Positions 359 through 29,221 of a stretch of 38,108 bases of DNA are shown here, piece after piece. The translations under genes and the position numbers were made by a program. The stretch's first letter is position 1. Each line of letters begins with the position of its first letter. Below the pieces are notes generated by a model. That model was not told where the DNA came from and did not search any database. It worked only from the letters and a program-made list of their open reading frames with translations. This stretch comes from a virus. Where the stretch lies: IMG/VR virus record IMGVR_UViG_3300045836_000130, positions 1 to 38,108 of that record; one strand, 5' to 3'.

Positions 359-391
359 CCTGTAACCTGCGCGGCTCCATCGCTCAATAGG
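359..391 (+). promoter_or_regulatory. Bipartite intergenic element, copy A
   Basis: CCTGTAACC at 359-367 is followed by AATAGG at 386-391, a start-to-start distance of 27. It begins directly after the stop of the hydrolase gene and precedes the 1167-aa gene, whose SD (AAGGGAG) lies separately near 415. The same pair recurs at three other block starts in this window. CCUGU and AUAGG could form a 5-bp stem, so it may act as DNA (phage-specific promoter) or as RNA. Confidence 0.5.
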
Positions 392-426
392 CAGAAAGTC
401 TTTCCGGCTGGATTAAGGGAGCTGAC

Positions 427-3400
427 GTGACGTTTGGTGTGTTTGAGGCCGCAGTAAGCAGTGAGGCCGAGGCGGGTCTGGCCCGCACCGCCGCCCAGGA
501 CAAGATGGCCGCTGCCGTCTATGACGTGCGCGAGAAGCTGGGCCCGTTCTTGTTCGCGGCCACCAGTGTCGAAGACTTCCGCGACCGGGTGGCGATGACC
601 AAGAACGACCAGAGCCTGTTCCGGGTGATCGAGGGGGCCGGGCTGCACCCGGCCACTGGCACGGTGCGCCGCATTGCGGGCAAGAACTCGATTCTGGAGA
701 ACGAGTTCAAGGCCAAGCTGGCTTCTCCCGGGTTGGCCCCCGCCCCCACCGTCAATCCGGCCATCGGCCCTTATGAGGACCCGGGCAGTCGGTTCACTAC
801 CGAGCACCTGGACAACAACTACGGCCCGGAGACCGATCTGGGCCGGGCACTGCCCAATCAGGCACTGACTGGTCGCCGCCACCGGGCCGAGATCACCGAG
901 GACGGCGGGGGTTTTGATGGCGAAGTGGACACCGATGCCACCTTCAAGCCCTCTGAAGGGGAGTTGAAGCCCGAGGGTGATTTCGAGAAGTACAAGAACA
1001 AGGTCGATCAGGACGCCCCGTCCAAGGTTCAGCGCAACTTCGCCTCCAAGATGGCCTGGAACATGTACCTGTCCTGGTGCGAGTGCAACGGCAAATCCCC
1101 GGCCCGGCTCTCCTCCCTGGACGCCTACGGTGCCAATCTGTCCGACGCGCAGTATCTGCGGCTGGCCAACACGATCACGGCCTGGGCCAACGAGCACAAG
1201 CCCACGGTGCCCGACACCAAGCTGAAGAAGAAGGACAAGGTGGCCGGGCAGCATGATCCGGCTGTTGGCCGCCCCAACGTCAGTGACTATTACGGCAAGC
1301 CCGACTGGGTACCGATGAGACCCACTCGTCACGACCAGGGCGGGGTGCGCAAGTACCCGGCCGAATACCCTGAGCCCGAGCTGGGTGAGATGGACAAGCT
1401 GCGTGACAACGCCAAGATCTCAGTGTTGCGCCGCTACGTGTCCTACTGCGACGCCAAGGGCATCAGCAAGGTCTCCAAGCGCAATGTGGACCGCTATGCC
1501 GACTGGCAGGGTCTTTCTCCGGTGCTGCGCCGTCACCTCTACGCCCAGATGGCCACCACGATCCGGTGGGCCAAGAAGACCGCCTGCTGGCCGGGCTGCC
1601 ACGAGAACGAGGCGCACGCCAAGAAGTTCCACAACAAGGAGTCTCGCCGTCGCACCGCCGGTCCCGACTACCTGCAGAAGGCTGACGACGCGCTGACTCA
1701 GCTGCTCAACCAGAAGGCCGAGGAGTTCCAGGAGACCATCGCGCCGCTGCAACAGGCCCTGCAGACCGTGCAGCAGGCCGAACAGCTACAGGCCCAGCAG
1801 AACCCGCTCAATGTCTTACCGCCCGCAGGCACCGTCAACGTGCTGCCCGGCGGCGGCGGTGGCGGCGGTGGGCTGCCCGGCGCAGGACCGGGCGGGGGTC
1901 CCTCCACCGCCCAGCAGGTTGGCATGCCTGACCCCAACTCCCCCGACATGTCCGGGCTGGCTCAGATGTTGGCCCAGGGAGCCGGAGCGGGTACCGGGGT
2001 CAACGATGCCCCCACCGGGGGTGGCCAGGACGCTCCACCGCCCGCAGCGGCCGGTGCCGGGGCACTGCCCGACGACCTGACCCAAAAAGCCGCCCGGCGC
2101 AAGCGCCGCCGGGTCACCCGGCCGCGTCAGGCCGCCGGGGTCGGCGAGCAGTGGGACCGCTGGCGCAACCAGAAGGCCCAGCAGGGTGACGTGTTGCGCG
2201 GCGGGGACGTGGACTACGACCAGTTCGCCAACGAGCGGGGCGTCGGGCAGCGGGCGTTGCAAAAGCTCAAGCAGCGTAACGAGACCCCCGATTTCGCTCC
2301 GATCAACCAGCCCGAGCATCAACTCTCGCCGCGTAACCGTGCCGCTGTGGGTAACCGGCGGCGGGCTTACTACGACGATGACGACTACGAGCCGGGTGGC
2401 ACCAGCGACGACTTCCACGACTACAACTCCGGCCACGCACACGAGCAGCAAGACCGCTCCCAGCAGAACGGCTGGAAGCTGACCCATGCCGATGACGAGG
2501 GTCACGCCAGCTGGTCACACCCCTCGGGTCACTCGGTGACCGGGCGCGACGGCCCCAACGGCGGCTCCTGGCAGCTGCACGGTCCCAAGGGACCGATGGG
2601 TCATCCCCAGCGTGATCCGGTGGACGCTCAGCGCCTGATGCCCAAGCAGGCCCGGAGGACGACCCGGGGAAAAGCACGAGGGGCCGCTAGGCCCCGCCGG
2701 GCCGAACAGCTGACCGGTCCCTTCGCCGGATACCAGGACTTTGAGGATTGCGAGTCCAAAAACTCCGACAAGGGTCGTCCCGACGCCTACTGCGGCGAGA
2801 TTCACCACCAGGTGGAGAAGGGCCGCAAGCGCAAGGGCGAGCCGCTGCACGACTTCCAGGACAAGCAGTCGATGCGCAAGGGTGCCCCGTTCGCCGGGTA
2901 CGACGACTTCTCCGACTGTGAATCCCAGAATAGTGATAAGGATGATAGCGGCGCTTATTGCGGAGAGATAAAGCATAAGACTGAGGACAAGAAGAAAAGC
3001 TCGCGGCGCAAGCGCGGTGGCCCCAATGACATTCCTGCTCCAGCTCCTGCCCCCGGGCTGGCCGGGCAGTACATGCCGTTGCCGCAGACCGGGGAAGCTA
3101 ACGCCACCAACGCCGGTCCTGATAAGCCCGCTCCGCAGGAGAGCAACCTGCCCCGCACCGGTCGGCGCAAGCAAGCTGACCGACGCCTTTCGTGGTCAGG
3201 GTGGGGTCCCGCTCAGTTCCCCAAGACCCGCAAGGTGGCGGGCTGGGACTGGGATGATCATCTACAGGCCTACATCGCCAATGCACCGCGCAAATTCGCC
3301 TGCAGCTGCGGTGAGGAGCACGACACCCCCTCGGGCTATCAGCGCTGCAAGTGCGGCAAGGCCTGGCACTCCTATGTGATCGGCACCGGGGGTTCCAACC

Positions 3401-3930
3401 GCGAGGCGGCCGCCGACAAGTTCTTGGTCAGGGAAATCCAAGTTCGACCCGATGTGATCGTGGCCAGCCGCAAGCAGGCCGGAGAGTGGGAAACTAGCCC
3501 CCACGAATCTGAAGGCAGCTTTCTTGGACACACCCCCGATCACAAGATCCCCCAGTATCTGGAGCATCTACGGGGTAAGGTCCGGGGCCAAAACATCAGC
3601 ATGGGTGAGCTATCAGACCTGCAGGGGCTGGCTGAGCACGGCTACGTCCACCCCGACGACATGGAGCTGCACGAGGCGGCCGGGACCCCGGAAGAGGACT
3701 TTCATAGAGGATCGAACCGCGACTGGGACAACGACGCCTTCGACCCTCGGGAGTTCGGGGCCAGCATCACTTTGCTTGATCCACGTACCGGTAACTACCA
3801 CCGGCTGATCGATCCCGGCGAGCTGGACGACGGCGAGGACCCCGGTCACCCCACGTTCCGTAAGCCACCCAAGGACTGGGCACGCAGAGGGGATGGTGCG
3901 AAGTGGACCAAGAGTCCCATCGGCAGCTGA
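427..3930 (+). CDS. Large multi-domain head-region protein, 1167 aa, function unknown
   Basis: GTG start with AAGGGAG upstream. I do not recognise the whole protein. Visible parts: an N-terminal helical region; two divergent copies of a ~55-residue helical unit (about residues 204-258 and 325-383) sharing Y-x-S-x-C-x-x-x-G-x-S, then LS, then a T-I-x-W-A end; a Gln-rich coiled coil (~425-460); Gly/Pro-rich linkers (~470-550); two copies of a 33-residue Cys motif (PFAGY-x-DF-x-DCES-x-NSDK, ending AYCGEI) at about 763-795 and 819-851; and a CxC-x12-CxC zinc-ribbon candidate with Cys at 959, 961, 974 and 976. RRHRAE, RRRAYY, RRAE and RRKQAD segments separate some of these parts, as in the protease/scaffold protein downstream. 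It lies upstream of the portal, and its last 28 bases overlap the next gene. A virion or assembly role is inferred from position only. Confidence 0.82.
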   Translation: MTFGVFEAAVSSEAEAGLARTAAQDKMAAAVYDVREKLGPFLFAATSVEDFRDRVAMTKNDQSLFRVIEGAGLHPATGTVRRIAGKNSILENEFKAKLASPGLAPAPTVNPAIGPYEDPGSRFTTEHLDNNYGPETDLGRALPNQALTGRRHRAEITEDGGGFDGEVDTDATFKPSEGELKPEGDFEKYKNKVDQDAPSKVQRNFASKMAWNMYLSWCECNGKSPARLSSLDAYGANLSDAQYLRLANTITAWANEHKPTVPDTKLKKKDKVAGQHDPAVGRPNVSDYYGKPDWVPMRPTRHDQGGVRKYPAEYPEPELGEMDKLRDNAKISVLRRYVSYCDAKGISKVSKRNVDRYADWQGLSPVLRRHLYAQMATTIRWAKKTACWPGCHENEAHAKKFHNKESRRRTAGPDYLQKADDALTQLLNQKAEEFQETIAPLQQALQTVQQAEQLQAQQNPLNVLPPAGTVNVLPGGGGGGGGLPGAGPGGGPSTAQQVGMPDPNSPDMSGLAQMLAQGAGAGTGVNDAPTGGGQDAPPPAAAGAGALPDDLTQKAARRKRRRVTRPRQAAGVGEQWDRWRNQKAQQGDVLRGGDVDYDQFANERGVGQRALQKLKQRNETPDFAPINQPEHQLSPRNRAAVGNRRRAYYDDDDYEPGGTSDDFHDYNSGHAHEQQDRSQQNGWKLTHADDEGHASWSHPSGHSVTGRDGPNGGSWQLHGPKGPMGHPQRDPVDAQRLMPKQARRTTRGKARGAARPRRAEQLTGPFAGYQDFEDCESKNSDKGRPDAYCGEIHHQVEKGRKRKGEPLHDFQDKQSMRKGAPFAGYDDFSDCESQNSDKDDSGAYCGEIKHKTEDKKKSSRRKRGGPNDIPAPAPAPGLAGQYMPLPQTGEANATNAGPDKPAPQESNLPRTGRRKQADRRLSWSGWGPAQFPKTRKVAGWDWDDHLQAYIANAPRKFACSCGEEHDTPSGYQRCKCGKAWHSYVIGTGGSNREAAADKFLVREIQVRPDVIVASRKQAGEWETSPHESEGSFLGHTPDHKIPQYLEHLRGKVRGQNISMGELSDLQGLAEHGYVHPDDMELHEAAGTPEEDFHRGSNRDWDNDAFDPREFGASITLLDPRTGNYHRLIDPGELDDGEDPGHPTFRKPPKDWARRGDGAKWTKSPIGS
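2713..2979 (+). repeat. Duplicated Cys-containing peptide motif inside the 1167-aa gene
   Basis: Two copies encode P-F-A-G-Y-x-D-F-x-D-C-E-S-x-N-S-D-K followed by A-Y-C-G-E-I, at 2713-2812 and 2881-2979. A basic linker separates them. The copies differ strongly in codon use: the first is GC-rich, while the second contains runs such as aatagtgataaggatgatag. This suggests an old duplication or a different origin for the second copy. Confidence 0.75.
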
Positions 3931-4292
3931 GTACCGTGGCCCAGGGGTTGTGCGAGGTCTGTAAAGAACTCAAGGAGCTGGCCTACACCGATCCGGTGGG
4001 CCGGGAGTACTGCCTGGACTGCTTTTCCACGCTGCCGATCCCCACCGCCAGTCGCATAGTCGAGTACCTGATGCTGACCATCCCGTTCGCCATCGGGGAT
4101 CGTGTCGAGTGCCGCACCGCCGGGGTGCTCTACGACGGCATCGGGGTCATCGAGGACATCTCGATTGAGCTGGAGCACTACGGGACGCCGACGTTCCCCT
4201 CCTTCAAGGTGCACCTCACCGAGAAGGCCTACCCGGAGTGCCCGGACTACGTGTGGTATATGGAGTCGCAGCTCAAGAAGGTTGAGGAGTAA
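3903..4292 (+). CDS. Small zinc-ribbon protein, 129 aa, function unknown
   Basis: GTG start at 3903 with AGAGGGGA nine bases upstream, overlapping the previous gene by 28 bases. An alternative GTG at 3936 lies just past the previous stop. The N-terminal third has two CxxC pairs (Cys17/20 and Cys37/40), a treble-clef or zinc-ribbon pattern. The remainder is predicted beta-rich (FAIGDRVECRTAGVLYDGIG), resembling an SH3-like barrel of the kind that recognises short peptides or nucleic acids. It ends in TAATG, where its stop overlaps the portal start by one base, so it is translationally coupled to the portal. A role in portal or packaging assembly is a guess from position. Confidence 0.75.
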   Translation: MDQESHRQLSTVAQGLCEVCKELKELAYTDPVGREYCLDCFSTLPIPTASRIVEYLMLTIPFAIGDRVECRTAGVLYDGIGVIEDISIELEHYGTPTFPSFKVHLTEKAYPECPDYVWYMESQLKKVEE

Positions 4293-6787
4293 TGGCTTCT
4301 CCCCTCGTGCCCGCCAGCGGCAACTGGAGCAATGAAGCGGCCCGGTTGCGTTCAGCGGGTTACACCATGCCGCGTAGCCCCGTGCAGGCCCGGCTAGAGG
4401 CCAAGAAGGTGGCCGATACGGTGGCCTCGGGCTCGCTGACCGACATCGCCAACCGCAAGGCCACCGCCGATATGCGCCGCGCCCGGATGGCCGCCAACCG
4501 GGGTGCCAGCATGGGCATGACCCGCACCGCTTCCGACATGATGATGGCGCTGCCCAAGATGCGCTTGCCCGGGGCCTCCCTAGTGGACAAGGGCATCCCG
4601 ATCAACGTCTCCGACCCCAAGGAGCTGATCGAGATCCGGCGCTGGGCGCGGCTGTTTTACTCCACCCACGACCTGATCCCGCTGCTGATCGACATCTACG
4701 CGCGGTTCCCGGTGGTAGGATTAGAGTTTCAATGTAAAGATCCATCCATCGAGAAGTTCTATACCTCTATGTTTCTCGATGAACTCAACTATGAAGAATT
4801 TCTCCCAGAATGTATTGGTCGAGAATACTTTGTGGCCGGAGAAGTCACGACACTCGCTCATTTCGATGAGTCGCTGGGGATGTGGACGGCCGAAGAGATC
4901 CTCAACCCCGATCACGTCGCGGTGTCCAAGAGTCTGTTCGTTCAGCAGGAGCGAGTGCAGCTGCTGGTCAAGGAGATGGTCGAGGGCCTGCGCAACGGCC
5001 CGATGGGTCGTCTGGATGCCGACGAGCGTCCTTCTGAGCGACTGGAGCGCAACTGGGAGTACAAGCAGCTGGCCCGCAACTACCCCGAGATCTTAGAGGC
5101 TGCCGCCCGCGACGACGGGCTGGACATCGATGAGGCGGTCTGGAGCCGCTTGGTCAACAAGGCCAACCCGTGGGACAACCGGGGCACCCCGTTTTTGCTG
5201 CGCTCCTTCCGCACGCTGCTGATGGAGGAGAGTCTCAACGCCGCCCAGGACGCGGTGGCCGATCGGCTTTACTCCCCGATGGTGCTGGCCACCATGGGCA
5301 TCGAGAACATGGGTGACGGCGAGCCCTGGATTCCCTCCCAGGCCGAGCTGGACAACCTGCGCGACGACATGCAGACCGCGCTGTCGGCCGACTTCAAGCT
5401 GTTGGTGCACAACCTGGGTGTGGAGGTGCAATCGGTCTTCGGCCGCGAGAGTGTCCCCAACTTCGATAGTGATTATGACCGTATTGATGCCAAACTTATG
5501 CAGGCATGGGGTATTGGTCAAGCACTTATTATGGGTGGTACTGGGGCTGGTGGAACATACGCATCTTCTGCATTGAACCGTGAAGTGTGTGAATTGTTGA
5601 TGAAAGGCTTTCAGAAGAAGGTCATTCGTCATATGCGCAAGCGCATGGAGGTCATCGCCGAGGCCCAGGAGCACTTCGACTACGAGCTGAAGGGTGGCCT
5701 GCGGGTGCCGCTCTACCGCGAGATTGTCGAGGATATCCTCGATGACGACGGCAACCCGACCGGTGAGCAGCGCATCGTGCGTGCGCCCAAGCTGTTGATC
5801 CCCGAGGTCAAGTTTGACTCGCTTAACCTGCGCGACGAGGCCACCGAGCGTGCGTTCATCGGCCAGCTCAAGGCCTACGGGGTGCCGGTCAGTGACAAGT
5901 CGCTGGCGGTTAACATCGAGGTGGACTTTGAGCAGGAGCTGGAGCGCGAGGCCGAGGAGACGGTCAAGAAGGGCCTGGCCAAGGCCCAGGCTTTTGCCAA
6001 GATGCAAAAGCTCTGCGACGCCCAGCAGCTACCTTACCCGCCTGAGCTGGTGGCTCATCTGCAGGCCACCCTGCAGCTGCGTCAGGGTCTGGCCCAGACC
6101 GACGAGCTAGAAGACCAGGCCAAACAGATGGACATCCAGACCAAGCAGATGATGCCCGCCGGGCAGCTGGGCGTGATGCCCGGGTATGCCGCTCCCCCGC
6201 CCGAAGAGGGCGTAGAAGGCCAGGACCCCGGCATGGGGGCGATGCCCCCACAGGGGGCGCTGCCACCGGGCTCGGACATGCAATCGGCCCCGCCGATGAT
6301 GGGCTCCCCGGGCGGCTATCCGATGGCCGCCGATCCCTCGATGATGGAGGGGCAATCTTCAGCTGAGACTCCCGTAAATCGTAGCCGTCCGGTAGAGTCC
6401 GACGAGCAACGTGCCAATGCCCCCCGTGCCGCTTCGGCGACCCAGCGGTGGGCAGAGCGGGTGAACGGCTCCCGGATCAAGAAACGGTCCAGGTCCAAGT
6501 TTGAGATCGGTCCCTCTAGCCGGGGTCATTCTCGCCACGTCACCCCCGAGCAGGTTGAAGCGGCGGTACGACGGCGGGAGATGTATGCCAAGGGGGCCAT
6601 CAGTGTTTCACAACTGGTTGATTCGCCTGATTTTTACCGTATGATCAATATGACTGGCCATCGTCACGAGATTCAGGCGGATTGGCCGGAAATCCGAGCA
6701 GGTGGGGCCAAGGAAAGTGCTGACCTGCTCAAGGACATGGTTGAGCAGTACGTGTACCTTACGGGCGATTCAGTAGTGTGGGATTAG
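4292..6787 (+). CDS. Portal protein (831 aa)
   Basis: Portals form the dodecameric ring at one vertex of the head through which DNA enters and leaves. The assignment rests on length, on position before protease and major capsid genes, and on sequence layout: RRWARLFYSTHDLIPLLID near residue 115; a central region with AAQDAVADRLYSPMVLATMG; then LMQAWGIGQALIMGGTGAGG with a following helix (SALNREVCELLMKGFQKKV). The last part is the usual portal wing/stem pattern in large tailed phages. The C-terminal ~250 residues are Met/Pro/Gly-rich and low in complexity, ending in a basic tail. ATG at 4292 overlaps the previous stop and has GAGGAG upstream. Two stretches (about 4720-4860 and 5461-5640) are much more AT-rich than the rest, without frame damage. 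Confidence 0.8.
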   Translation: MASPLVPASGNWSNEAARLRSAGYTMPRSPVQARLEAKKVADTVASGSLTDIANRKATADMRRARMAANRGASMGMTRTASDMMMALPKMRLPGASLVDKGIPINVSDPKELIEIRRWARLFYSTHDLIPLLIDIYARFPVVGLEFQCKDPSIEKFYTSMFLDELNYEEFLPECIGREYFVAGEVTTLAHFDESLGMWTAEEILNPDHVAVSKSLFVQQERVQLLVKEMVEGLRNGPMGRLDADERPSERLERNWEYKQLARNYPEILEAAARDDGLDIDEAVWSRLVNKANPWDNRGTPFLLRSFRTLLMEESLNAAQDAVADRLYSPMVLATMGIENMGDGEPWIPSQAELDNLRDDMQTALSADFKLLVHNLGVEVQSVFGRESVPNFDSDYDRIDAKLMQAWGIGQALIMGGTGAGGTYASSALNREVCELLMKGFQKKVIRHMRKRMEVIAEAQEHFDYELKGGLRVPLYREIVEDILDDDGNPTGEQRIVRAPKLLIPEVKFDSLNLRDEATERAFIGQLKAYGVPVSDKSLAVNIEVDFEQELEREAEETVKKGLAKAQAFAKMQKLCDAQQLPYPPELVAHLQATLQLRQGLAQTDELEDQAKQMDIQTKQMMPAGQLGVMPGYAAPPPEEGVEGQDPGMGAMPPQGALPPGSDMQSAPPMMGSPGGYPMAADPSMMEGQSSAETPVNRSRPVESDEQRANAPRAASATQRWAERVNGSRIKKRSRSKFEIGPSSRGHSRHVTPEQVEAAVRRREMYAKGAISVSQLVDSPDFYRMINMTGHRHEIQADWPEIRAGGAKESADLLKDMVEQYVYLTGDSVVWD

Positions 6788-6794
6788 AGATACC

Positions 6795-7451
6795 ATGGGA
6801 CTGATAAGTGATGTCAGGTCGGTAAGTATGGCATTGGCGGCAATCCCGTTCCGGATCATCGGCGACTACCTCAATCGGCCGCCGACCATCCCTCCGGCAG
6901 TGATCTCGTCATCGGGACAACTGGAAAGCGGAGATGTCGATCCCCTCGGCAGTGACGAGAGCGAGCTTGCCGGTCAATGGCCCGAGGAAGAGTGGAAGTC
7001 CATTCAGCGCTGTGAGAGCATCCGGTGGCGGAATTTCCTTCCCGAGGAACCAGACAAGAGGCTTGCTGAGGAGAAAGTTGTCCGAATTCAATGGGGTCTT
7101 CGGCTGCCGAATGGCGAGGTGCATTGGGATACCTGGAGCGGTATCTCTTTTTTTACACCGCTGGATCGTCTGAAGATGGTGGCCACACTACAGAAGACTG
7201 CATTGGATATGGGGTTAAATGAGGGTGATCAGACAAAGGAGTTTCTAAATAAGTATAGTTGGCAGACACGAGAGCAAACGAGTAGGATCAGTTACTGCAA
7301 TACTGTGTCCTATGCTCTGACCGATCCAGCGGTCTCTGCTGCTCCTGAGGAAATTCCCAATGATGACGACCCCCAAGGCAATTCACCCCATGACAACTCC
7401 TTCTATCCCCATCGAGACCTTCACCCGGGATTTGTGGGAGGCGATGCGTGA
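6795..7451 (+). CDS. Hypothetical protein, 218 aa
   Basis: ATG start seven bases after the portal stop, without a strong SD, so coupling to the portal is likely. A short hydrophobic N-terminal segment (VSMALAAIPFRIIGDYL) is followed by an acidic middle. The second half has alternating aromatic and charged residues (VRIQWGLRLPNGEVHWDTWSG) and a helical segment. No family recognised. Base composition drops within the gene (about 7140-7320 is AT-rich). The 3' end overlaps the next gene by about 90 bases, more than anywhere else in the window, so one of the two boundaries may be off. Confidence 0.65.
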   Translation: MGLISDVRSVSMALAAIPFRIIGDYLNRPPTIPPAVISSSGQLESGDVDPLGSDESELAGQWPEEEWKSIQRCESIRWRNFLPEEPDKRLAEEKVVRIQWGLRLPNGEVHWDTWSGISFFTPLDRLKMVATLQKTALDMGLNEGDQTKEFLNKYSWQTREQTSRISYCNTVSYALTDPAVSAAPEEIPNDDDPQGNSPHDNSFYPHRDLHPGFVGGDA

Positions 7452-7650: not shown

Positions 7651-7662
7651 GGAGGTGGCGCG

Positions 7663-8215: not shown

Positions 8216-8216
8216 G

Positions 8217-8792: not shown

Positions 8793-8825
8793 CCTGTAAC
8801 CCCCGCGCCAGCTTCCCCCAAAAGG
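8793..8825 (+). promoter_or_regulatory. Bipartite intergenic element, copy B
   Basis: CCTGTAACC at 8793-8801 and AAAAGG at 8820-8825, start-to-start 27, directly after the 2H phosphoesterase stop and 33 bases before the start of the 1102-aa gene. GGTAGGGA follows the second box. The second box differs from copies A, C and D by one base. Confidence 0.5.
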
Positions 8826-8857
8826 TAGGGACATCCCTATCGCCAGAGGAGGCTGCC

Positions 8858-11800
8858 GTGCACACAGAGGGAACTCGCGTTCACACCCCTCACGGCATCG
8901 GAACCATCACCGAGGTGGACAAGGTACGCGGGTTCACCCAGTACCGCATCGCCGGGGCGGGCTTCAACGTCTGGCTGGATGCCACCAAGGTGCACGCCGC
9001 CGGGCTGGAGACCACCGTGGACCCCGGGCGGCCCTACGAGGTCAACCGGGACAACTCCACCACGCTGCCCTACGACCCCTCGCCGCAGTACCACACCGAC
9101 CTCTTTCGCCAGGAGCAGACCATCCTGCCCGGTGACTACGAGATCGACCCCGAGGACCGGCTGCGCTCGTCGGACTCGCTGACGCTGAACAAAAAGAGCC
9201 CCAACCGCCCCTACCCCGGCCCGAACCCGGACTTGTTCGCCAAGACCTCGGCCTACCACTACAGCGAGTTTGAGGACACCGATCCCGAGCGCCCAGAATG
9301 GGGTAGCGACGAGTGGCACCGCGACCTGCCCGACGTGGAGCGCACTTTCGACGCCGCCTGCCGCCCGGCCGGGCTCTCGGATCGCTACGCGCACATCATC
9401 GAGGCCGCCGACCACTCTGAGGTCGGCCAGTTCCGTGCCGACCCGCTGGGGTATCTGCAGCGCACCGCGCACGTGCACATCGCCGGGGAAGAGGGCTATC
9501 TAGAGCAGAAGTTTGCCGACTACACTCACTTGCTCGACGCCGATCCGGCGATGCGCACCGCCGCCTGGAAGGACGTGGCGGCCAAGGCCAAGGCTCTGCG
9601 CGCCGAGGGCCGGGTGCACCCCGAGGACATCGGCCCCAACCGGATCATGGCCAAGGTCGAGGGCGACAACGGCACTTATCAGACGCTGGTGCTGCGTGGT
9701 CCCGGTTATGCCGGGATTGGCAAGGGGGCTAACTCGGCCACCTTCTCCTGCACCTGCCAGTGGGGCAAATGGGCGTTCAAGCGCCAGTTCACCTTCGTCG
9801 GGCGGATGTGCAGCCACGCCCTGGCCACGCTTTGGGAGCTGCAGAGCCACTCTGCCAAGGGCAACTCCGGAACCTTCAAGGCTGCCGGGGTGGTGGAGGA
9901 CTTTAAGAAGTGGGCCGAGGAGAACAATGACGGCCACTTGGACGACACTTCGATTGAAGACTTCATCAATACCTCCGAGGACGACGTGTCGCGCGAGGAT
10001 GCGGCCAAGCTCTACGAGTACCTCGATGAGCACCTGCAGGAGGCTCCTGAGCGCGACTACGACATCCCCTACACCCTCGATAATGACGAGGCCTACAAGA
10101 CCGCCGCCGACGCCGAGGTGGCGGTGCTGCGCACCCGCCCGGAGAGCCTGACTCCCGATCTGCGCATCGTGCCGCAGAACCGTGAACACGACTGGACCGA
10201 TGTCACCGAGGACGACCGCACGACCACCGGCCCCGGCCAGATCATGACCGGCTCGCAGGACGGGCACTTAGAGATCGACTGGGAGGGCGAGCATCACCCC
10301 GACGTGCCGCAGTGCCCGTCAGACGGTCATGAGGACGTGGGAGAGATCCTGCACTTCGCCAATTTCACGGCCCGGCTACACACCGCTGATGACGGTGGGT
10401 TTGAGCACAGCGACACCGATGTGGGCGGCAATCCCCATCTGCCGGGCTGGCTCAAGGGTATCGGCCATGGTCTCGCCGAGGCTTTCGATCCCAATCCTGC
10501 CCACAGCTATGGCACCGATCCCCGCAGTGGGCTGGAGAAGCCCTCTGCTCCCGCAGACACCTCGACCGGACTGGATCTCTCGGGCGTGGAGACACTTAGC
10601 GGTGAGCATCCGGGCACCTCGGGCGTGGATACCTCCTCGGCCAGTGGGATCGGCAAGAATACCGGTGGAGATCTGAGCATCACCGATTACCTGCACCCCC
10701 AGGGCGCTCCGGCCGCTTCTGCGGGGACTGCCGCTCCCGCTGTGCCCGCCCCGGCTGGTCAGGGAGCACCCCCGGCTCCCGGTGCTCCTCCGGCTCCTGC
10801 CACCCCGGGTTCACCGGGCGCTCCCGGGACTGCGCCTGCAGGGGGCTCCAGCGCCGGGCACTTCAACGATGCCGGGGATTATGTGGTCGGTCAGGGGGAC
10901 ACGCTCTCGGGCATCATGCAGTCCCACGGCGGGGGTGACTGGCACTCGTTGGTGAATCAGAACAAGGGGGACATCGGCACCCAGGGCACCAACATCGAGA
11001 CCAATCCCGATCTGATCCACCCCGGTGACGTGTTGCACGGGGTGCCCGGTGCGCCCAAACCACCGGCTGCTCCGGGGACCGACACCTCGGGCAATGCCGC
11101 CTCGGGAGCCGGGGACGAGACGTTGTTCGGCCAGGACAACAAGCCCGGCAATGCCGGTGCGCCCCCGGCAGCCCCCGCTGCTCCACCACTGCCCGCAGGG
11201 GTCGGATCGACCGGCGGAGGCGCTAACCCACTGGCCAACCAGGCCTTGCCCAACGACGCCAAGGCGGGGCAGTCCCCCATTGACAACACCAATCACAGTA
11301 AGTCGGGTCGTCGCCGTTACAGCGAGGACATGCGTCCCGACACCGGGGAGGCCGCCGGGAAACTTGATCAGCTCCGGGAGAAGTCGCAAGACGACTTCCA
11401 CCCTCAGCACATGGATTCCTACAATGACGAGATCCGCGACCTGGTGGATGATCTCCAAGACGCCGGGGTGGATGCCAGCCCGATTGTGGCCCGGCTGCAC
11501 CAGGCCGACAACCCCGCCGATGGCAATCCCGACTTCGCCGGGATCTCCTCGCCGGGCTGGGCCGACGAGCCGTTCTCGGGTTCGGGGCCCGATCACCGCC
11601 GCTATTTCTCGGACTCGGCATCCTATGTCGCCGACCATGAGCGTCCGCACATCGAGGACGACTGGTATGACGATGATGGCGAGGACATCGTGAAATTCAA
11701 CGACTCACGCAGCCGTCCCCAGCAGGGGCCCCGACACTCCTCGGCCACCGTTAAGCGCCACGGCGGCCCGCGTCGCTCCCCGCGCATCGATCCCGGAACA

Positions 11801-12166
11801 CGCCAGCAGCGCCAGATGCTGCGCCATGCCGAGGGCATTGCCCCCGCCGAGGAGGATGCCACCTCGCTGCCCATCCCCGATACCGCCGATCCGCTGGCCG
11901 ACTCCACCGACATCGTGGCCAATTTCCAGCGCTCTGCGGCGGCTGCCGACCTGATGAGCAATGCCCCCTCCGGGGGTGGCGGCGGTGGCCGGTTCTCCGA
12001 TGACGACATTGCCAACCATGCCCGCGAGGCGATGTTGCGCACTGCCGGGCGCAAGTTCACCCTGGCCGAGCAACGGGAGCTGGAGGAGGAAGAACACCAT
12101 CTCGGGGCCAGGAACATGCCCACCGACGCTGATCTGGCCGGGACGCACTACCTCATGGGCCGCTGA
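8858..12166 (+). CDS. LysM- and SWIM-domain head/virion protein, 1102 aa
   Basis: GTG start with AGAGGAGG upstream. Domains seen: an N-terminal segment (HTPHGIGTITEVDK) resembling small beta barrels; a SWIM-type zinc motif CxC-x17-CxH (Cys298, Cys300, Cys318, His320), a fold usually binding nucleic acid or protein; an acidic helical stretch; a Pro/Ala/Gly-rich linker (~625-670); a LysM domain (~674-730, DYVVGQGDTLSGIM ending HPGDVLHGVP), which binds peptidoglycan-type glycans; a second low-complexity linker; and a charged C-terminus with GRRRYSED and HRRYFSD motifs. LysM in a phage protein of this region suggests a virion component that touches the cell wall. SWIM plus LysM in one chain is unusual. 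The TGA overlaps the protease ATG by one base. Function is inferred from domains and position. Confidence 0.8.
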   Translation: MHTEGTRVHTPHGIGTITEVDKVRGFTQYRIAGAGFNVWLDATKVHAAGLETTVDPGRPYEVNRDNSTTLPYDPSPQYHTDLFRQEQTILPGDYEIDPEDRLRSSDSLTLNKKSPNRPYPGPNPDLFAKTSAYHYSEFEDTDPERPEWGSDEWHRDLPDVERTFDAACRPAGLSDRYAHIIEAADHSEVGQFRADPLGYLQRTAHVHIAGEEGYLEQKFADYTHLLDADPAMRTAAWKDVAAKAKALRAEGRVHPEDIGPNRIMAKVEGDNGTYQTLVLRGPGYAGIGKGANSATFSCTCQWGKWAFKRQFTFVGRMCSHALATLWELQSHSAKGNSGTFKAAGVVEDFKKWAEENNDGHLDDTSIEDFINTSEDDVSREDAAKLYEYLDEHLQEAPERDYDIPYTLDNDEAYKTAADAEVAVLRTRPESLTPDLRIVPQNREHDWTDVTEDDRTTTGPGQIMTGSQDGHLEIDWEGEHHPDVPQCPSDGHEDVGEILHFANFTARLHTADDGGFEHSDTDVGGNPHLPGWLKGIGHGLAEAFDPNPAHSYGTDPRSGLEKPSAPADTSTGLDLSGVETLSGEHPGTSGVDTSSASGIGKNTGGDLSITDYLHPQGAPAASAGTAAPAVPAPAGQGAPPAPGAPPAPATPGSPGAPGTAPAGGSSAGHFNDAGDYVVGQGDTLSGIMQSHGGGDWHSLVNQNKGDIGTQGTNIETNPDLIHPGDVLHGVPGAPKPPAAPGTDTSGNAASGAGDETLFGQDNKPGNAGAPPAAPAAPPLPAGVGSTGGGANPLANQALPNDAKAGQSPIDNTNHSKSGRRRYSEDMRPDTGEAAGKLDQLREKSQDDFHPQHMDSYNDEIRDLVDDLQDAGVDASPIVARLHQADNPADGNPDFAGISSPGWADEPFSGSGPDHRRYFSDSASYVADHERPHIEDDWYDDDGEDIVKFNDSRSRPQQGPRHSSATVKRHGGPRRSPRIDPGTRQQRQMLRHAEGIAPAEEDATSLPIPDTADPLADSTDIVANFQRSAAAADLMSNAPSGGGGGGRFSDDDIANHAREAMLRTAGRKFTLAEQRELEEEEHHLGARNMPTDADLAGTHYLMGR

Positions 12167-15117: not shown

Positions 15118-15152
15118 TCGGTCTATTTCTTAATTGAAAGGCTAAGGAGACC

Positions 15153-15692
15153 ATGTTCTACGCACCGATTTCCAACCCTGCGCTGAAGAGAAGCATTCGG
15201 CCGATTTTCGCGCAGCACCAAGCGACCACCTGGCCGGGCTTTTTGGACCCGAACTGGAATCGCAGTTTCGACATCTATCCGGGCACCGTGATGTGCCGCC
15301 TGGAAAAGGAGATCTACACTCCTTACACCGGGGCGGGCAATCAGCGTCCGTTTGGCCTCTCGGCCTTCTTCGTCTCCCCGCAACTGGGGGTGGACGAGGT
15401 GACGGCCACCGGCACCAACCTGTTCACGGTATGGGTCGGCGGCGAGCAAGCGGTCTTTGAGATCCTGGCTCCCGGTTTCGACCAGACCGCGAACTGGACG
15501 GCGGCCAATGTCACCGATGGTGGCTACCAGCTGCTGACCGCCACCAACCAGGGTCTGCTGACTCCCACGGGTGTCACCGAGGCCAATGCCATCGCCGAGC
15601 TGATCGACGTGGAGTCCACCGACAAGATCCTGATCCGGATGAACCGCTTCGCCTTCGGCGGTGCGACGACTCCGACCCTGCCCACCCCGTAA
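15153..15692 (+). CDS. Capsid-associated (possibly decoration) protein, 179 aa
   Basis: ATG preceded by AAGGAGA. The product is beta-rich (TVMCRLEKEIYTPYTG, NLFTVWVGGEQAVFEIL) with a Pro/Thr end. It lies between the protease/scaffold gene and the major capsid gene, a common place for head decoration or stabilising proteins, and is separated from both by short leaders with strong SD sites, as expected for abundant products. No sequence family recognised, so the decoration role is positional inference. Confidence 0.7.
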   Translation: MFYAPISNPALKRSIRPIFAQHQATTWPGFLDPNWNRSFDIYPGTVMCRLEKEIYTPYTGAGNQRPFGLSAFFVSPQLGVDEVTATGTNLFTVWVGGEQAVFEILAPGFDQTANWTAANVTDGGYQLLTATNQGLLTPTGVTEANAIAELIDVESTDKILIRMNRFAFGGATTPTLPTP

Positions 15693-15714
15693 GAAAGCTA
15701 AGGAGACAACCACC

Positions 15715-16722
15715 ATGACTGCCGCTATTCCGCAGGCTCTCGGTTCGGGGTTGCAGCGCACTGCACGCCATTCCGAGGACTACGTGGCCGATATCCAGTC
15801 CATGATGGACAAGATGGGCGGCCGCAAGCTCTCACACCGCCAAAAGCAGGCCAAACTGCAGCACATCCTCGCCGACCGTCAGCATGGCATCATGCGCCTC
15901 GGTCAGTCGATGATCGGCCCGATCCAGCTGCAGCTCCGCTACCAAGGCATCCTGCGCAATGTTTTGCTGGAAGACACCCTGACTCCAGGCGTGCCGATTC
16001 AGTACGACGTGCTGGACGACCTCGGTCAGGCCTACATGCTGCACGGCGATGAGGGTGAAATCAAAATCACCCCGTTTGAAGGAAAGCGCGTTGAGGTGCG
16101 TCTTTTCCGCATCGCGTCGTTCCCGAAGATCAAGAAGGAAGACCTCTACTACCTGCGGTCCAACATCGTGGAGTACACCCAGGACTACACGAAACAGGCC
16201 ATCATGCGCCAAGAGGACTCCCGCCTGATCACTTTGCTGGAGGTTGCGGCAGCAAACTACCAGCTGGTGGACACCTCGGCCGTGCCCGGCACCGGCTCGT
16301 TGCCCAACGAGATCACCATCGCCGGGTCCACGCTGATGCCGAGTGATCTCTACACCGCCGTGACCTTCACCGACCAGCGCATGCTGGATTCCTCGCGGCT
16401 GCTGTGCAATCCGCAGGAATACCGGGACTTTTACCGCTGGGACATCAACACCACCGGCTGGGCGTTCAAGGATTCGGTGGTCGCGGGCGAGAAGATTGTC
16501 CAGTTTGGTGAATTCCAGATTGGTAAGTCAATCATCATCCCGCGCGGCACGGTGTACCTCACGCCTGAGCCAGAATTCCTCGGCGTATTCCCGGTGATGT
16601 ACTCGCTGGATGTCGAGGAGAACAACCAGGTGGAACAATTCCACAAGGGATGGGTCATGGATGAGTTGGTTGGAATGGCGGTGCTTAACCCCCGCGGTAT
16701 CATAATTTTACGCAAGAGTTAA
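15715..16722 (+). CDS. Major capsid protein, 335 aa
   Basis: ATG 15715 (MTAAIPQALG) is chosen over an upstream frame extension because AAGGAGA lies just before it and the extension overlaps the previous gene. It is a soluble protein with an N-terminal helical arm (residues ~20-60, many Lys/Arg/Gln) and mixed alpha/beta body, without membrane or low-complexity parts. Position after protease/scaffold, strong SD, and an intrinsic terminator right after the gene fit the major head subunit. An HK97-type fold is expected from the family context but cannot be shown by eye. The gene uses a highly regular codon set, consistent with strong expression. Confidence 0.8.
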   Translation: MTAAIPQALGSGLQRTARHSEDYVADIQSMMDKMGGRKLSHRQKQAKLQHILADRQHGIMRLGQSMIGPIQLQLRYQGILRNVLLEDTLTPGVPIQYDVLDDLGQAYMLHGDEGEIKITPFEGKRVEVRLFRIASFPKIKKEDLYYLRSNIVEYTQDYTKQAIMRQEDSRLITLLEVAAANYQLVDTSAVPGTGSLPNEITIAGSTLMPSDLYTAVTFTDQRMLDSSRLLCNPQEYRDFYRWDINTTGWAFKDSVVAGEKIVQFGEFQIGKSIIIPRGTVYLTPEPEFLGVFPVMYSLDVEENNQVEQFHKGWVMDELVGMAVLNPRGIIILRKS

Positions 16723-16744
16723 TTTCTGACCTGCGTAAACGCTT

Positions 16745-16777
16745 AAGCCCCGTACCTCACAAGGGTGCGGGGCTTTT
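16745..16777 (+). terminator. Intrinsic terminator after the major capsid gene
   Basis: A 12-13-base stem (AAGCCCCGTACC paired with GGGTGCGGGGCTT, one G-U pair) with a six-base loop, ending in TTTT. It lies 22 bases after the capsid stop and ends the capsid transcription block before the endonuclease gene. Confidence 0.88.
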
Positions 16778-16857
16778 GCATGTCAAGATTAAGTATTGCC
16801 CGAATAACCAGTGCGTCCATAGGCCAACCCTTCCGTAATGAAAATGTTCAATCCTCG

Positions 16858-16873
16858 TGCTATACTGACCGCA
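16858..16873 (+). promoter_or_regulatory. Extended -10 promoter giving a leaderless endonuclease mRNA
   Basis: TGCTATACT (extended -10: TGn-TATACT, hexamer at 16861-16866) ends six bases before the ATG at 16873. A transcript from this -10 would start at or within a base or two of the ATG, and no Shine-Dalgarno sequence precedes the ATG. Leaderless mRNAs with this geometry are common in mycobacteria. No clear -35 is visible, as is usual for extended -10 promoters. Confidence 0.62.
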
Positions 16874-17871
16874 TGGCACCAGGGCTGAAACATCCACGAC
16901 GGGACGAGGGGCGAGAGCTATGGCTCCAAGGTCACTCGTTGAAGCATATTGCCGACATTCTCGGCGTCAGTGATCGTAGTGTGCGAGATTGGCGAGATCG
17001 AGATAAATGGCCTGAGCGAGATTACGAATTGCCTCAGCGATACTCAGATTCACGTCGTAAAAAAGCCGATGCTGAATTTGAGGCTGTAAAAGATGAGCTT
17101 GCCCAGGTATGGAAAGATTCCTTTCAGCCCAAGACTGTGGGGCGTACTAATGGCGTGATCATGCAAGGGTCTGCTCAGCGCGTAGCCGAGCATTTTGGTT
17201 GGTCCCCTAGTAAGGCCAACAAGTTCCTGAAGCGTGCAGGGTTGATGCAAGACAGACCCTCTAGTAAGAAGCAGGGCGAGGAGGCTATGCGGCTGTTTAA
17301 GTCTGGATGGTCGGTACCCAGAATTACCGAGCATCTGGAGGTCAACCAAGACTCTGTTCGTAACTGGCTGAAGGAGCGCGGTGTGGAGCTGTCTGCGGTC
17401 TCTCATACCACCCGGATGAGTCACGAGGAGAAGATGGCGTGGCGGCGCTCTATCAGCGCCGGGAAGGTCGCCTCTGTTGCTGGCTCTGGCCGTTTCAACT
17501 ACAACGGCCACCGCATGGACTCTACCTATGAGGTTAGGGTTGCGGCCGCGTGTGATCGTCTAAATATCCCGTGGCGGCTCTATGACCGTGCCGCTGACGG
17601 CGTGTTGGAGTATGAAGCCGAGGGCGGGGCGATTGTGCGCTACGCGCCCGACTTCTGGGTGATGGATCTGCCTGTTGAGGTCAAAGGAATTTTTGATGTG
17701 ACTGCACACACCAAGGTAACCAAGTGGCGTGAGCAGAAGGGTAAGCTGGCAATGATTATGAAGCAGGAACTACTTGATTTAGAGGATGCTCGCACACCGA
17801 GTGACGCCAACTCGATACTGGTGGCTGCCTGTTATCTAGACCCGCCGACAGACCCCGCGTATTGGGATTAG
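16873..17871 (+). CDS. PD-(D/E)XK endonuclease with N-terminal helix-turn-helix domains (homing-type), 332 aa
   Basis: ATG 16873 is chosen because of the promoter directly upstream; the frame is open earlier but would run into the terminator. Two helix-turn-helix segments are visible: residues ~18-45 (GHSLKHIADILGVSDRSVRDW) and ~140-170 (SGWSVPRITEHLEVNQDSVRNWL). The C-terminal part has the nuclease core: STYEVRVAAACDRLNIPW, then RYAPDF (Asp260) and, nine residues on, E269-V-K271, i.e. PD-(x)8-E-x-K. The combination resembles free-standing phage endonucleases that spread by cutting unoccupied sites. Lower GC and different codons (cga, gat, aaa) than neighbours, its own promoter, and insertion between terminator and next block all suggest a mobile gene. 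A DNA-binding regulator or a terminase-like protein is less likely. Confidence 0.75.
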   Translation: MAPGLKHPRRDEGRELWLQGHSLKHIADILGVSDRSVRDWRDRDKWPERDYELPQRYSDSRRKKADAEFEAVKDELAQVWKDSFQPKTVGRTNGVIMQGSAQRVAEHFGWSPSKANKFLKRAGLMQDRPSSKKQGEEAMRLFKSGWSVPRITEHLEVNQDSVRNWLKERGVELSAVSHTTRMSHEEKMAWRRSISAGKVASVAGSGRFNYNGHRMDSTYEVRVAAACDRLNIPWRLYDRAADGVLEYEAEGGAIVRYAPDFWVMDLPVEVKGIFDVTAHTKVTKWREQKGKLAMIMKQELLDLEDARTPSDANSILVAACYLDPPTDPAYWD

Positions 17872-17881
17872 TATCAACTCC

Positions 17882-18490
17882 ATGACAGTCCAGACACCTG
17901 ATCCTGACGACGAGTTGCGCATGGTGGAGAATCAGGACGACTTTGATCCTCAGCTTCAGTCTGCGCAGCAAGATTTCTTTGCCGATAAGGATGGTCTTAC
18001 TCTGAGACAGAGGCAGAATGCTGAGTTTCTTGAGCGCAAGAAGAAAACCATGCCGCCTAACCCCACCCAGGAGAAGGGGCGCAAGCTCTATGAGTGGTGG
18101 CGATCTGGCTGTGGGGTGCACGATCCCGCGCTGACCGAGATGACCCAGGACATGCGCCCGTTCGACAGGCTGAACCCCTACGAGCGGGCACGCTGGGTAG
18201 TGATGGCCAAGGCCCTGGGCGACCGCTTCCCGCACCACGAGCGGGTCCGGGGATCAAGGTTGACCGTGCCCGAGCAGGAGCAGCGCTACGCCGCCATCCC
18301 GGCGGGCACCGGCTGGGCCGAGTACGACAGCGCCCTCAACCCCGCCGAGAAGTGGAACGGCCAGTCCTGGAGCACCCGCAAGGTGCGGGTCTACTGGTGG
18401 CAGCTGTGGCGGCCGCTACCGGAGAAAACTGGGTACTCCCTGAGCTACGGGGATCATCTGGCTCCTGTCGCTCGCCGGGGGGACCTGTAA
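17882..18490 (+). CDS. Hypothetical protein, 202 aa
   Basis: Starts ten bases after the endonuclease stop, with no evident SD. The first ~56 codons are AT-richer and acidic/helical, like the endonuclease gene. From ATG 18050 (MPPNPTQEKGRKLYEWW) the composition returns to the GC-rich pattern of the region, so 18050 could be the ancestral start. The C-terminal half is Trp/Tyr/Arg-rich (VRVYWWQLWRPLP). No family recognised. The stop lies within the start of bipartite element C. Confidence 0.62.
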   Translation: MTVQTPDPDDELRMVENQDDFDPQLQSAQQDFFADKDGLTLRQRQNAEFLERKKKTMPPNPTQEKGRKLYEWWRSGCGVHDPALTEMTQDMRPFDRLNPYERARWVVMAKALGDRFPHHERVRGSRLTVPEQEQRYAAIPAGTGWAEYDSALNPAEKWNGQSWSTRKVRVYWWQLWRPLPEKTGYSLSYGDHLAPVARRGDL

Positions 18491-18517
18491 CCCCATAGCG
18501 GCCGATAGGATAATAGG
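18484..18517 (+). promoter_or_regulatory. Bipartite intergenic element, copy C
   Basis: CCTGTAACC at 18484-18492 and AATAGG at 18512-18517, start-to-start 28. It sits immediately upstream of GTG 18519. ACCUGU and AUAGGU could pair over six bases. If it acts as a promoter, transcription would start downstream of GTG 18519, favouring the SD-preceded ATG at 18645 as the real start of the next gene. Confidence 0.5.
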
Positions 18518-18518
18518 T

Positions 18519-19535
18519 GTGGGAGAACTCTCCAGAGACCTTGAAGGTCTTTTTGAGCTGTTGACCTCTCGCCACGAGCCCCCTTGGTGGGTCGGCGTGG
18601 TCCTAAAGAAACTCGATCACATCCAGATCAAACAGGAGAGAATCATGGCACTACAAGATGACTTGGCCAACCTGCTGAGCACCCTGCAGACCGACATCAG
18701 CAACTTAAGCAGTGGTCAGCTCGCGGATCAGACCACGATCACCAACCTGCAAAACCAGCTCGCCGACGCGCAAAGTCAGCTGTCGGCCGCCCAGGCCACC
18801 GCCGCCAGTGACGAGTCGCAGCTGCAGACGGCTCAGGGCGTGGTGACCCAGTTGCAACAGACGGTGACCGACCTGGGTAATCAGATCGCGCAGTTCACCC
18901 CGCAGACGCCACCTCCGGGTCCGACGCCCACCCCGGCACCTGCTCCGACACCGGCACCGACCGACCAGCCTCCGGCCCCGGCTCCCACTCCGGCTCCCGA
19001 CCAGCCGCCGACGCCCGCACCGACCCCGGCTCCCACTCCGACGCCTGCGCCTGCGGCGCTGCCCACCGTGACGGGGGTCAGTGCCCCGGCCGGTGGTGGT
19101 AACCCGGCAGGTGGTGACTCGGTGACGATCAGCGGCACCGGATTCACCGGAGCGGCGGCCGTGCAGTTCGGTCCCACTCCAGCCACTTCGTTCACCGTGG
19201 ATAGCGACACTTCCATTACTGCGACCTCTCCGGCGGGGTCGGGTGTCGTGGACATCACCGTGGTGACTGCCGATGGCACCTCGGCGGCGGTGCCGGAGGA
19301 CCAGTTCACCTACGCGGCCGCACCGGCCGCCCCCACCGGAGGTGACACCACCACGACCACCACCCCGACTCCGGTAGACCCCAACGCCGCCCCGGTGACG
19401 GCCGGATCGCTGCCGCAGGACACTCAGGTGGTCGAGGTTCCTGCTGACGTAACGCCAGTAGTGGTTCCGGCTGGCGCAGTGGCGGTGGCGGCTGGTAGCC
19501 TTCCTCCTGACGCAACGGTCACACCAGTTCAGTAA
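18519..19535 (+). CDS. Coiled-coil, Pro-rich, IPT/TIG-domain surface protein, 338 aa (or 296 aa from ATG 18645)
   Basis: The longest frame starts at GTG 18519. ATG 18645 (MALQDDLANLL) has AGGAGAGA five bases upstream and may be the real start. Domains: a coiled coil (residues ~45-125, heptads rich in Leu, Gln and Ala), a ~55-residue Pro/Thr/Ala linker of TPAPAPTPAP type, an IPT/TIG immunoglobulin-like domain (~185-265, VTGVSAPAGG, VTISGTGFTGAAAVQFG and TSPAGSGVVDITV), then a Thr/Pro/Val-rich tail. Coiled coil plus Ig-like domain fits a trimeric virion surface fibre or head decoration. A strong hairpin follows 17 bases after the stop. Specific role unknown. Confidence 0.72.
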   Translation: MGELSRDLEGLFELLTSRHEPPWWVGVVLKKLDHIQIKQERIMALQDDLANLLSTLQTDISNLSSGQLADQTTITNLQNQLADAQSQLSAAQATAASDESQLQTAQGVVTQLQQTVTDLGNQIAQFTPQTPPPGPTPTPAPAPTPAPTDQPPAPAPTPAPDQPPTPAPTPAPTPTPAPAALPTVTGVSAPAGGGNPAGGDSVTISGTGFTGAAAVQFGPTPATSFTVDSDTSITATSPAGSGVVDITVVTADGTSAAVPEDQFTYAAAPAAPTGGDTTTTTTPTPVDPNAAPVTAGSLPQDTQVVEVPADVTPVVVPAGAVAVAAGSLPPDATVTPVQ

Positions 19536-19552
19536 GGGTTTTTCACAACAGC

Positions 19553-19607
19553 ACGCAGCCCAGCATGGGATGAAGAACACAGTTTTTCATCCTGTGTTGG
19601 GCTGTGT
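19553..19607 (+). terminator. Very long hairpin (25-bp stem, 5-base loop), likely terminator or structured RNA
   Basis: Left arm 19553-19577 and right arm 19583-19607 pair along their whole length with five G-U pairs and no bulge; the loop is CACAG. T5 lies within the right arm at its base near the loop and no T run follows, so it is not a textbook intrinsic terminator, though mycobacterial terminators often lack the U tail. It separates the IPT-protein gene from the next gene. The alternative is a processed or regulatory RNA. Confidence 0.6.
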
Positions 19608-19703
19608 CGCATTGACAAAGGTTAAGATTCTCATCCAAAATGGGTAGTGTCAGCTAGCCAAGAAGTTGTGCTGGGGAGAGGCAACCCGAACGGAGGAGAA
19701 CAA

Positions 19704-19988
19704 GTGGCCATTGACATGACCGCTTCTTCACCGCTGTCTCCGAAGAAGCACAGTTTTCTGGTTACCTTGATCGATGCCGAGACCCTGGAAGAGGGGGTCA
19801 CCGTCGTGCAGGCGGTCTCGGCTGATGACGGCCTGCAGGAGTTCCTCCAGGGCATCGCCACCTATAGCGGTGGTCTGCTGGTGGGTCGCTCGCTGCAATC
19901 CGATGAGCGTTTTCTGATGTATCACCCGGTGATCGTGGACATTGATGCCGACGCGGCCGCCCACATTCCGCTGGTTGACCCCGTTTAA
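19704..19988 (+). CDS. Hypothetical protein, 94 aa
   Basis: GTG 19704 is chosen over GTG 19647 because GGAGGAGAA stands just before it. The product is a small alpha/beta protein (HSFLVTLIDAETLEEGVTVVQAVSADDGLQEFLQGI) with no Cys and no membrane segment. The layout (strand, strand, helix) could be a ferredoxin-like or ubiquitin-like fold. No family recognised. It lies alone between the long hairpin and a TATAAT promoter. Confidence 0.68.
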   Translation: MAIDMTASSPLSPKKHSFLVTLIDAETLEEGVTVVQAVSADDGLQEFLQGIATYSGGLLVGRSLQSDERFLMYHPVIVDIDADAAAHIPLVDPV

Positions 19989-20025
19989 TTAACTGTAGAT
20001 CCCGTCAATTAAAAGCGCCATGCCC

Positions 20026-20031
20026 TATAAT
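20026..20031 (+). promoter_or_regulatory. Sigma-70-type -10 box TATAAT
   Basis: A perfect TATAAT 42 bases before the ATG at 20068, in an AT-rich intergenic stretch of this GC-rich genome. The best -35 at 16-18 bases spacing is weak (GTCAAT or CCGTCA). A GGGGGAA Shine-Dalgarno lies between it and the gene. Confidence 0.5.
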
Positions 20032-20067
20032 GGGTGTGCAGCCGATGATTGGGGGAACTCTACTGCC

Positions 20068-20589
20068 ATGCCCTACCGCCGCCGCCAGCCCGAGATGGTG
20101 ACCTGGCATTCACAGCTGATCTTTTTGCTGATCGCGCTGTTCTGGGGACTGAGCTACCTGATGCCCCCGCACGGGCGCATCCCGTTTTCTGAGGTGTTCC
20201 CCGATACCATCGAGCGCGGTGTGGCCAAGGGGATGTGGATCTGGGGACTGCTATTGTTTACCCCGGCGCTGGTGGGGTTCATCGGAGACATGTTCCTGCG
20301 GTTCACCAGCTGGATATGGTCCTGGCACATGGCGCTCTGGGCGCACTTTCTGCTGACCGCCACTTACGCCAGCTTGACCGCGTGCGCGTTGTGGGAGGGC
20401 ATGGAGCAGGTCACCCGCTTCCCCTGGCCGTGGACGGTATCGGCAACCATCAGCGCCTTGTCGCGTCCGCTGCTGTGGGGCGGCATCACCTACGTGCACT
20501 GGACGTATGCCCGGCTGCCAGCCCCGGCCAAACCTGCTCCGGTCACCGAAAAGGAGCGAGAGTGGCCCACACCCTCTTCAACACATTGA
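20068..20589 (+). CDS. Membrane protein with about four transmembrane segments, 173 aa
   Basis: ATG 20068 (MPYRRRQPEM) has GGGGGAA about 12 bases upstream; the longer frame start at 20020 would precede the TATAAT box. Hydrophobic segments lie at about residues 16-33, 55-75, 84-107 and 118-140, many rich in Trp and Phe, with a basic N-terminus and a Pro/Lys-rich tail. Its end overlaps the start of the next small membrane-protein gene. A holin or a membrane anchor for assembly is possible, but no diagnostic motif is seen. Confidence 0.75.
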   Translation: MPYRRRQPEMVTWHSQLIFLLIALFWGLSYLMPPHGRIPFSEVFPDTIERGVAKGMWIWGLLLFTPALVGFIGDMFLRFTSWIWSWHMALWAHFLLTATYASLTACALWEGMEQVTRFPWPWTVSATISALSRPLLWGGITYVHWTYARLPAPAKPAPVTEKEREWPTPSSTH

Positions 20590-20744
20590 TCGTCTTCGGG
20601 CCGTTCAGTGCGATCCTGATTCTGCTGGGATTCATGCGCGCTGCGCGCATCCAGCGCGCCACTCCTCAGCCGTTGCCGACCGTGTGCCCGACCTGCAAGC
20701 GCCCGTTGAGCGCCCGGCTGGCTCAGCAGCTGATCGCGCGCTGA
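20562..20744 (+). CDS. Small membrane protein with CxxC, 60 aa
   Basis: GTG 20562 with AAGGAGCGAGA upstream, overlapping the previous gene by 28 bases; the longer start of the frame (20235) is rejected because it would lie entirely inside that gene. One transmembrane segment (~7-25, LIVFGPFSAILILLGFM), then a basic stretch and VCPTCKRP (Cys42, Cys45), which may bind metal on the inner face. Followed directly by bipartite element D. Confidence 0.7.
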   Translation: MAHTLFNTLIVFGPFSAILILLGFMRAARIQRATPQPLPTVCPTCKRPLSARLAQQLIAR

Positions 20745-20777
20745 CCTGTAGCTCATGGCTTCCTGCCCATCAATAGG
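20745..20777 (+). promoter_or_regulatory. Bipartite intergenic element, copy D
   Basis: CCTGTAGCT at 20745-20753 and AATAGG at 20772-20777, start-to-start 27, then TAGGAGG as Shine-Dalgarno and an ATG at 20793. TGACCTGTA begins at the stop codon of the upstream gene, as in copy B. Confidence 0.5.
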
Positions 20778-20792
20778 TAGGAGGTCGGAAGG

Positions 20793-29206: not shown

Positions 29207-29221
29207 GTAGGAGACACGTTC

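Follow-up and report, generated by a model that had tools for sequence, protein, structure and literature searches.

Known promoter systems and the present element

The late promoters of T4 (TATAAATA, gp55/gp33) and SPO1 (gp33/gp34) are repeated at the heads of late blocks, are unlike host promoters and involve a phage sigma-like factor, and lone region-4-like proteins serve as activators of late genes in phages infecting low-GC Gram-positive bacteria. Many mycobacteriophages use host SigA promoters for their early genes; few of their late promoters have been characterized, and more work has been called for (PMC9262239). Two other kinds of repeat, the stoperators of cluster A and the start-associated sequences (SAS) of cluster K, are asymmetric, intergenic and mostly one-directional (PMC9262239, PMC3203893), the SAS being a single 13-bp sequence, GGGATAGGAGCCC, beside start codons (PMC3203893). 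The consensus of mycobacterial sigma-H promoters is GGAAYA-N17-GTT (PMC6411747, PMC10012870).

Here we analyzed a 38-kb IMG/VR virus record (38,108 bases; the window), which is kin to the Bxz1-like phages, its named kin being Mycobacterium phage Alice, Gordonia phage Skog and Rhodococcus phage Finch; two contigs, G2 (71.7 kb) and G4 (150 kb; IMGVR_UViG_3300042907_001596), are closer relatives. Its genes, including those for portal, major head, minor tail and tail sheath proteins, all lie on one strand according to a custom gene-calling script, with which individual start codons may be wrong. Several gene blocks of the window are headed by a two-box element, and each copy is most likely a phage-specific promoter for a late (virion and lysis) block of a Bxz1-like myovirus. 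The element is real, has a direction and a fixed spacing, lies between genes and is conserved at orthologous operon heads. It is a conserved, probably late promoter family and as such a known kind of thing; in the open-licence papers searched, no description of this promoter class was found for Bxz1-like phages.

Like the promoters of T4 and SPO1, the element is repeated at the heads of putative late blocks, and a candidate sigma-region-4-like protein occurs in these phages; unlike them, it joins a strong box 1 to the box 2 GAAWAGGT, and no region-2 protein was found in five relatives. With SigA promoters it shares two boxes about 17 bp apart, although neither box is TTGAC-like or TANNNT-like, and with mycobacterial sigma-H promoters, which are of the ECF type, it shares stringent boxes and rigid spacing but not the sequence. 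Several known signals do not match. The T4-type motif TATAAATA gives five one-mismatch matches, none at the copies; box 2 is not TANNNT, and SigA-like sites in the window stay at the level of shuffled sequence; no GGAAT-N16/17/18-CGTT, as expected of ECF (sigma-H/E) promoters, occurs in the window; the SAS, with up to 2 deviations allowed, is absent from the window; and matches to a cluster A stoperator pattern are at chance level.

The element in the window

A search of both strands of the window for CCTGTANCY-N16..22-AAWAGG returned four matches and none further, at 359, 8793, 18484 and 20745, all on the plus strand, all intergenic and with start-to-start distances of 27, 27, 28 and 27, in agreement with the original prediction. 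The chance expectation for this pattern is 0.01 (mean of 100 dinucleotide shuffles), and four matches were reached in 0/100 shuffles. Box 1 alone, with one mismatch allowed, is not enriched in the window (43 matches vs 48 expected), so that the pairing of the boxes at a fixed spacing is what matters. A check proposed along with the original prediction, namely whether the pair is missing elsewhere or equally common within genes, was also run, and its outcome favors the element. In addition, a fifth good copy at 36919 and a weak candidate at 29174 had been overlooked.

Copy 1, a putative late promoter (359-392, plus strand; 20.8 bits), consists of box 1 CCTGTAACC (359-367) and box 2 CAATAGGC (385-392) and precedes a gene (427-3930, plus strand) for a 1167-aa protein of phrog_2922, of unknown function. 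The portal gene (4292-6787, plus strand) lies inside this first block without an element upstream. On the other side of copy 1, a partial ORF (window 1-357) carries the serine-hydrolase-like motif GYSQGA, possibly of a lysin B or cutinase. Putative copy 2 (8793-8826, plus strand; 25.8 bits), with box 1 CCTGTAACC and box 2 CAAAAGGT (8819-8826), stands before a LysM-family gene (8858-12166, plus strand; 1102 aa, phrog_2940), the ortholog of Alice gp89, "LysM domain".

Putative copy 3 (18484-18518, plus strand; 26.7 bits) has box 1 CCTGTAACC and box 2 TAATAGGT (18511-18518) and precedes a proline-rich ORF without PHROG match (18519-19535, plus strand). Because its GTG at 18519 abuts box 2, either this start codon or a transcript start there is uncertain. 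Just 3' of this copy, within the ORF, a putative short hairpin followed by T, AGACCT-TGA-AGGTCTTTTT, was observed at window 18532-18558. Putative copy 4 (20745-20778, plus strand; 21.6 bits), with box 1 CCTGTAGCT and box 2 CAATAGGT (20771-20778), precedes a block (20793-26584, plus strand) formed by a 99-aa tail-fibre-like ORF (20793-21092) and the gene of an 1830-aa minor tail protein (21092-26584). Putative copy 5 (36919-36951, plus strand; 22.7 bits), CATGTAAAGC-N15-GAAAGAGT, lies before the tail sheath gene (37042-38106, plus strand), which runs past the contig end. The weak candidate (29174-29208, plus strand; 12-15 bits), CCTGCAGTCC-N17-GAGTAAGT, precedes an ORF at 29222-30169 and has no counterpart at the G2 ortholog.

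That each of the four exact copies precedes an uncoupled gene was confirmed, the next starts being 427, 8858, 18519 and 20793. The claim that each directly follows a stop codon stands for 8793 and 20745 only: a 1-nt gap intervenes at 359, and the box 1 at 18484 shares bases with the stop codon TAA of ORF 17882-18490.

Anatomy of the element

Among about 75 candidate sites from ten genomes, the consensus is CCTGTAAcC-N16/17-GAAWAGGT. Information is confined to the two boxes and a short purine run after GAAWAGGT, with uninformative flanks, the figures being somewhat inflated since the sites were chosen by matrix. The spacer is 16-17 in most of the 75 sites (TGTAAC to GAAWAG, 16-19 bp, mostly 18) and has little sequence content, which confirms the original remark that the sequences between the boxes are unrelated. 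Box 2 and the start codon are separated by a highly variable stretch, about 11-60 nt in most sites. At some sites a Shine-Dalgarno sequence follows box 2 by 1-2 nt and the start codon lies within 11-14 nt; such short leaders count against a promoter, because transcription beginning about 7 nt downstream would truncate the ribosome site. Several late sites of Alice (51714, 139962, 25195) have an inverted repeat whose loop contains box 2, e.g., CCTCCTC-GAATAGGT-GAGGAGG. A search of Rfam gave no match.

Conservation at operon heads in related phages

A weight matrix derived solely from the four exact copies of the window was used to scan other genomes regardless of their genes. Above 14 bits, 10/11 sites in G4 and 6/7 in G2 were intergenic on the coding strand, positions that make up about 6-7% of both strands in these contigs (binomial p ~2e-11 and ~2e-7, respectively). 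With a refined matrix, 10/14 sites in the relative G6 and 10/12 in Phrappuccino were plus-strand and intergenic; neither genome was in the training set, and the background fraction in their binomial test is a rounded estimate. The signal is weaker yet present in Alice, Skog and G10, and doubtful in Finch and G5. A lightly constrained motif search of upstream regions drifted to Shine-Dalgarno-rich solutions and left several genomes unseparated from their reverse-complement controls, and for these reasons it is not taken as evidence; a seeded rerun served to list sites.

In diverged relatives the element is found again at matching operon heads (the phrog_2922, LysM, phrog_2784 and tail sheath genes), the families with a conserved head element being those of the window genes at 427, 8858, 28041 and 37042, and it stays in place while the surrounding sequence diverges. 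Orthologous copies of copy 1 are present in G2, G4, Phrappuccino and Skog (weaker in Alice and G10), those of copy 2 in G2, G4, G6, Phrappuccino, G10 and Alice, and those of copy 5 in G2, G5, G6, Skog, Alice and G10; copy 3 has a counterpart at G2 39694, before the G2 ortholog at 39751. For the gene at 28041, the window copy is poor, and the orthologs in G2, G4, G6 and Phrappuccino have one. In G4 and Phrappuccino, where the ortholog of the gene at 12166 is preceded by a gap, it has a copy, and weaker ones occur in Alice and G10. Scores are close to zero at portal, major head and other coupled genes, apart from single cases such as the Skog portal (11.5 bits), and the element is rare before the remaining late genes; the coupled major head gene (15715-16722, plus strand) is without an element upstream in any relative.

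Since the same signal precedes matching genes in several related phages, the copies are most likely late promoters. The relatives, moreover, carry a different promoter-like element before non-structural genes and the late element before virion and lysis genes. Of the late-block promoter originally proposed, the direction, spacing, intergenic placement, conservation and the virion and lysis genes downstream have held, and promoter activity and late timing remain putative. Finch, the most distant relative, speaks against the promoter reading: its genome encodes the region-4 protein, yet the presence of the late element there is doubtful.

Proposed mechanism and alternative explanations

In the proposed mechanism, box 1 (CCTGTAAcC) would occupy the -35 position and box 2 (GAAWAGGT) the -10 position, RNA polymerase would start just downstream of box 2, and transcription from the element would happen late in infection. 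As the boxes match the promoters of neither SigA nor ECF factors, recognition would need a phage-encoded factor. The best candidate is a sigma-region-4-like protein of phrog_2931, which would contact box 1, box 2 being read by some other partner.

The alternative that survives best, though we regard it as fairly unlikely, is that a phage activator binds the element and works with the SigA holoenzyme of the host, with box 2 as a degenerate -10, as in Ltr/ArpU-like systems. The failure to detect a phage region 2 in five relatives fits this reading, as does the use of lone region-4-like proteins as late activators described above; however, box 2 lacks the A and T that define the SigA -10 (TANNNT), and its conservation equals that of box 1, something a model with an activator only does not require.

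An RNA element, in which CCUGU would pair with AUAGG in the 5' leader and control translation or stability, is very improbable. In the window copies the two boxes could pair as a short stem, as first suggested, and box 2 adjoins a Shine-Dalgarno sequence in several sites, but the supposed pairs break without compensation across the 75 sites: base G4 of box 1 is nearly invariant (74/75), whereas T, A and G occur opposite it at similar frequencies, 47/75 sites have a non-standard middle pair, C2 in the second outer pair faces a non-partner in 32/75, and there is almost no compensatory change between the boxes. The varying gap between box 2 and the start codon also argues against it, and the stem was rejected because the opposing bases do not covary. 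Equally remote is another one-directional, intergenic protein-binding site of the stoperator or SAS kind, for although the element is, like the cluster K SAS, asymmetric, mostly in one orientation and just 5' of gene starts, and the SAS contains ATAGG (PMC3203893), it has two boxes at a fixed spacing, its copies are concentrated at operon heads and the window holds no SAS match.

The candidate factor

Returning to a phage-specific late promoter, four of the five relatives tested (G4, Alice, Skog and Finch) encode a region-4-like domain, with a Pfam match below the cut-off in G4, Alice and Skog and above it in Finch; in the same five, no sigma region 2 was detected. The phrog_2931 family, with Phrappuccino gp130 and Alice gp204 among its members, is present in 14 viral contigs and carries a sigma factor annotation in Phrappuccino and Finch, and 207 phage records hold a relative of the G4 protein (tblastn). 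Its gene sits in the replication module, after phrog_2769, a region that lies outside the window fragment. From co-occurrence and sigma biology, phrog_2931 perhaps reads the late element. With about 200 phage records holding the candidate factor and Mycobacterium smegmatis as a routine host, the predicted promoters, the candidate factor and the timing are directly testable; if the reading is right, it would chart the promoters of a large group of phages and supply tools in the form of infection-dependent promoters. Homologs of phrog_2769 lie just upstream of the region-4-like gene in 14/14 viral contigs, although in one of them (L056) the distance is about 680 nt greater. Considered as the missing region 2, phrog_2769 matched nothing in PDB and nothing notable in Pfam.

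A second class of sites and other repeats in relatives

In the seeded rerun of the motif search, G4 drifted to a GGAAT...GCGTT class, and a second element class was thereby discovered. G4 has 25 exact GGAAT-N17-CGTT sites, all plus-strand and intergenic, between 22987 and 109416, against 0.7 expected from simulation; a spacer of N16 gave no site and N18 a single antisense one. This element has the consensus and spacing of sigma-H promoters (PMC6411747, PMC10012870). The sites precede mostly short genes without Alice orthologs in the non-structural region, and the late element of G4 often stands before genes with virion or lysis orthologs, and before some genes without an Alice ortholog. Alice has 12 such GGAAT-N17-CGTT sites, all intergenic and mostly followed by ATACT, and G6 and G10 have a few.

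We tentatively propose, as a speculative scheme, that Bxz1-like phages may run a two-step sigma program, in which promoters matching the host stress sigma factor, sigma-H, would serve non-structural (probably early) genes, their early timing being assumed, and CCTGTAAcC/GAAWAGGT would serve late genes, read by a phage factor that keeps only sigma region 4, together with a partner.

Other repeated elements were observed in two of the relatives. Finch has GTAAC-N17-19-CGA[TC], with 21 sites plus-strand and intergenic, 4 plus-strand within genes and 0 on the minus strand. In Skog, at about 8-17 kb, a repeated CCTGTAAAGT followed by a GGCGGGAACGGCCCGCC-like hairpin lies before small genes.
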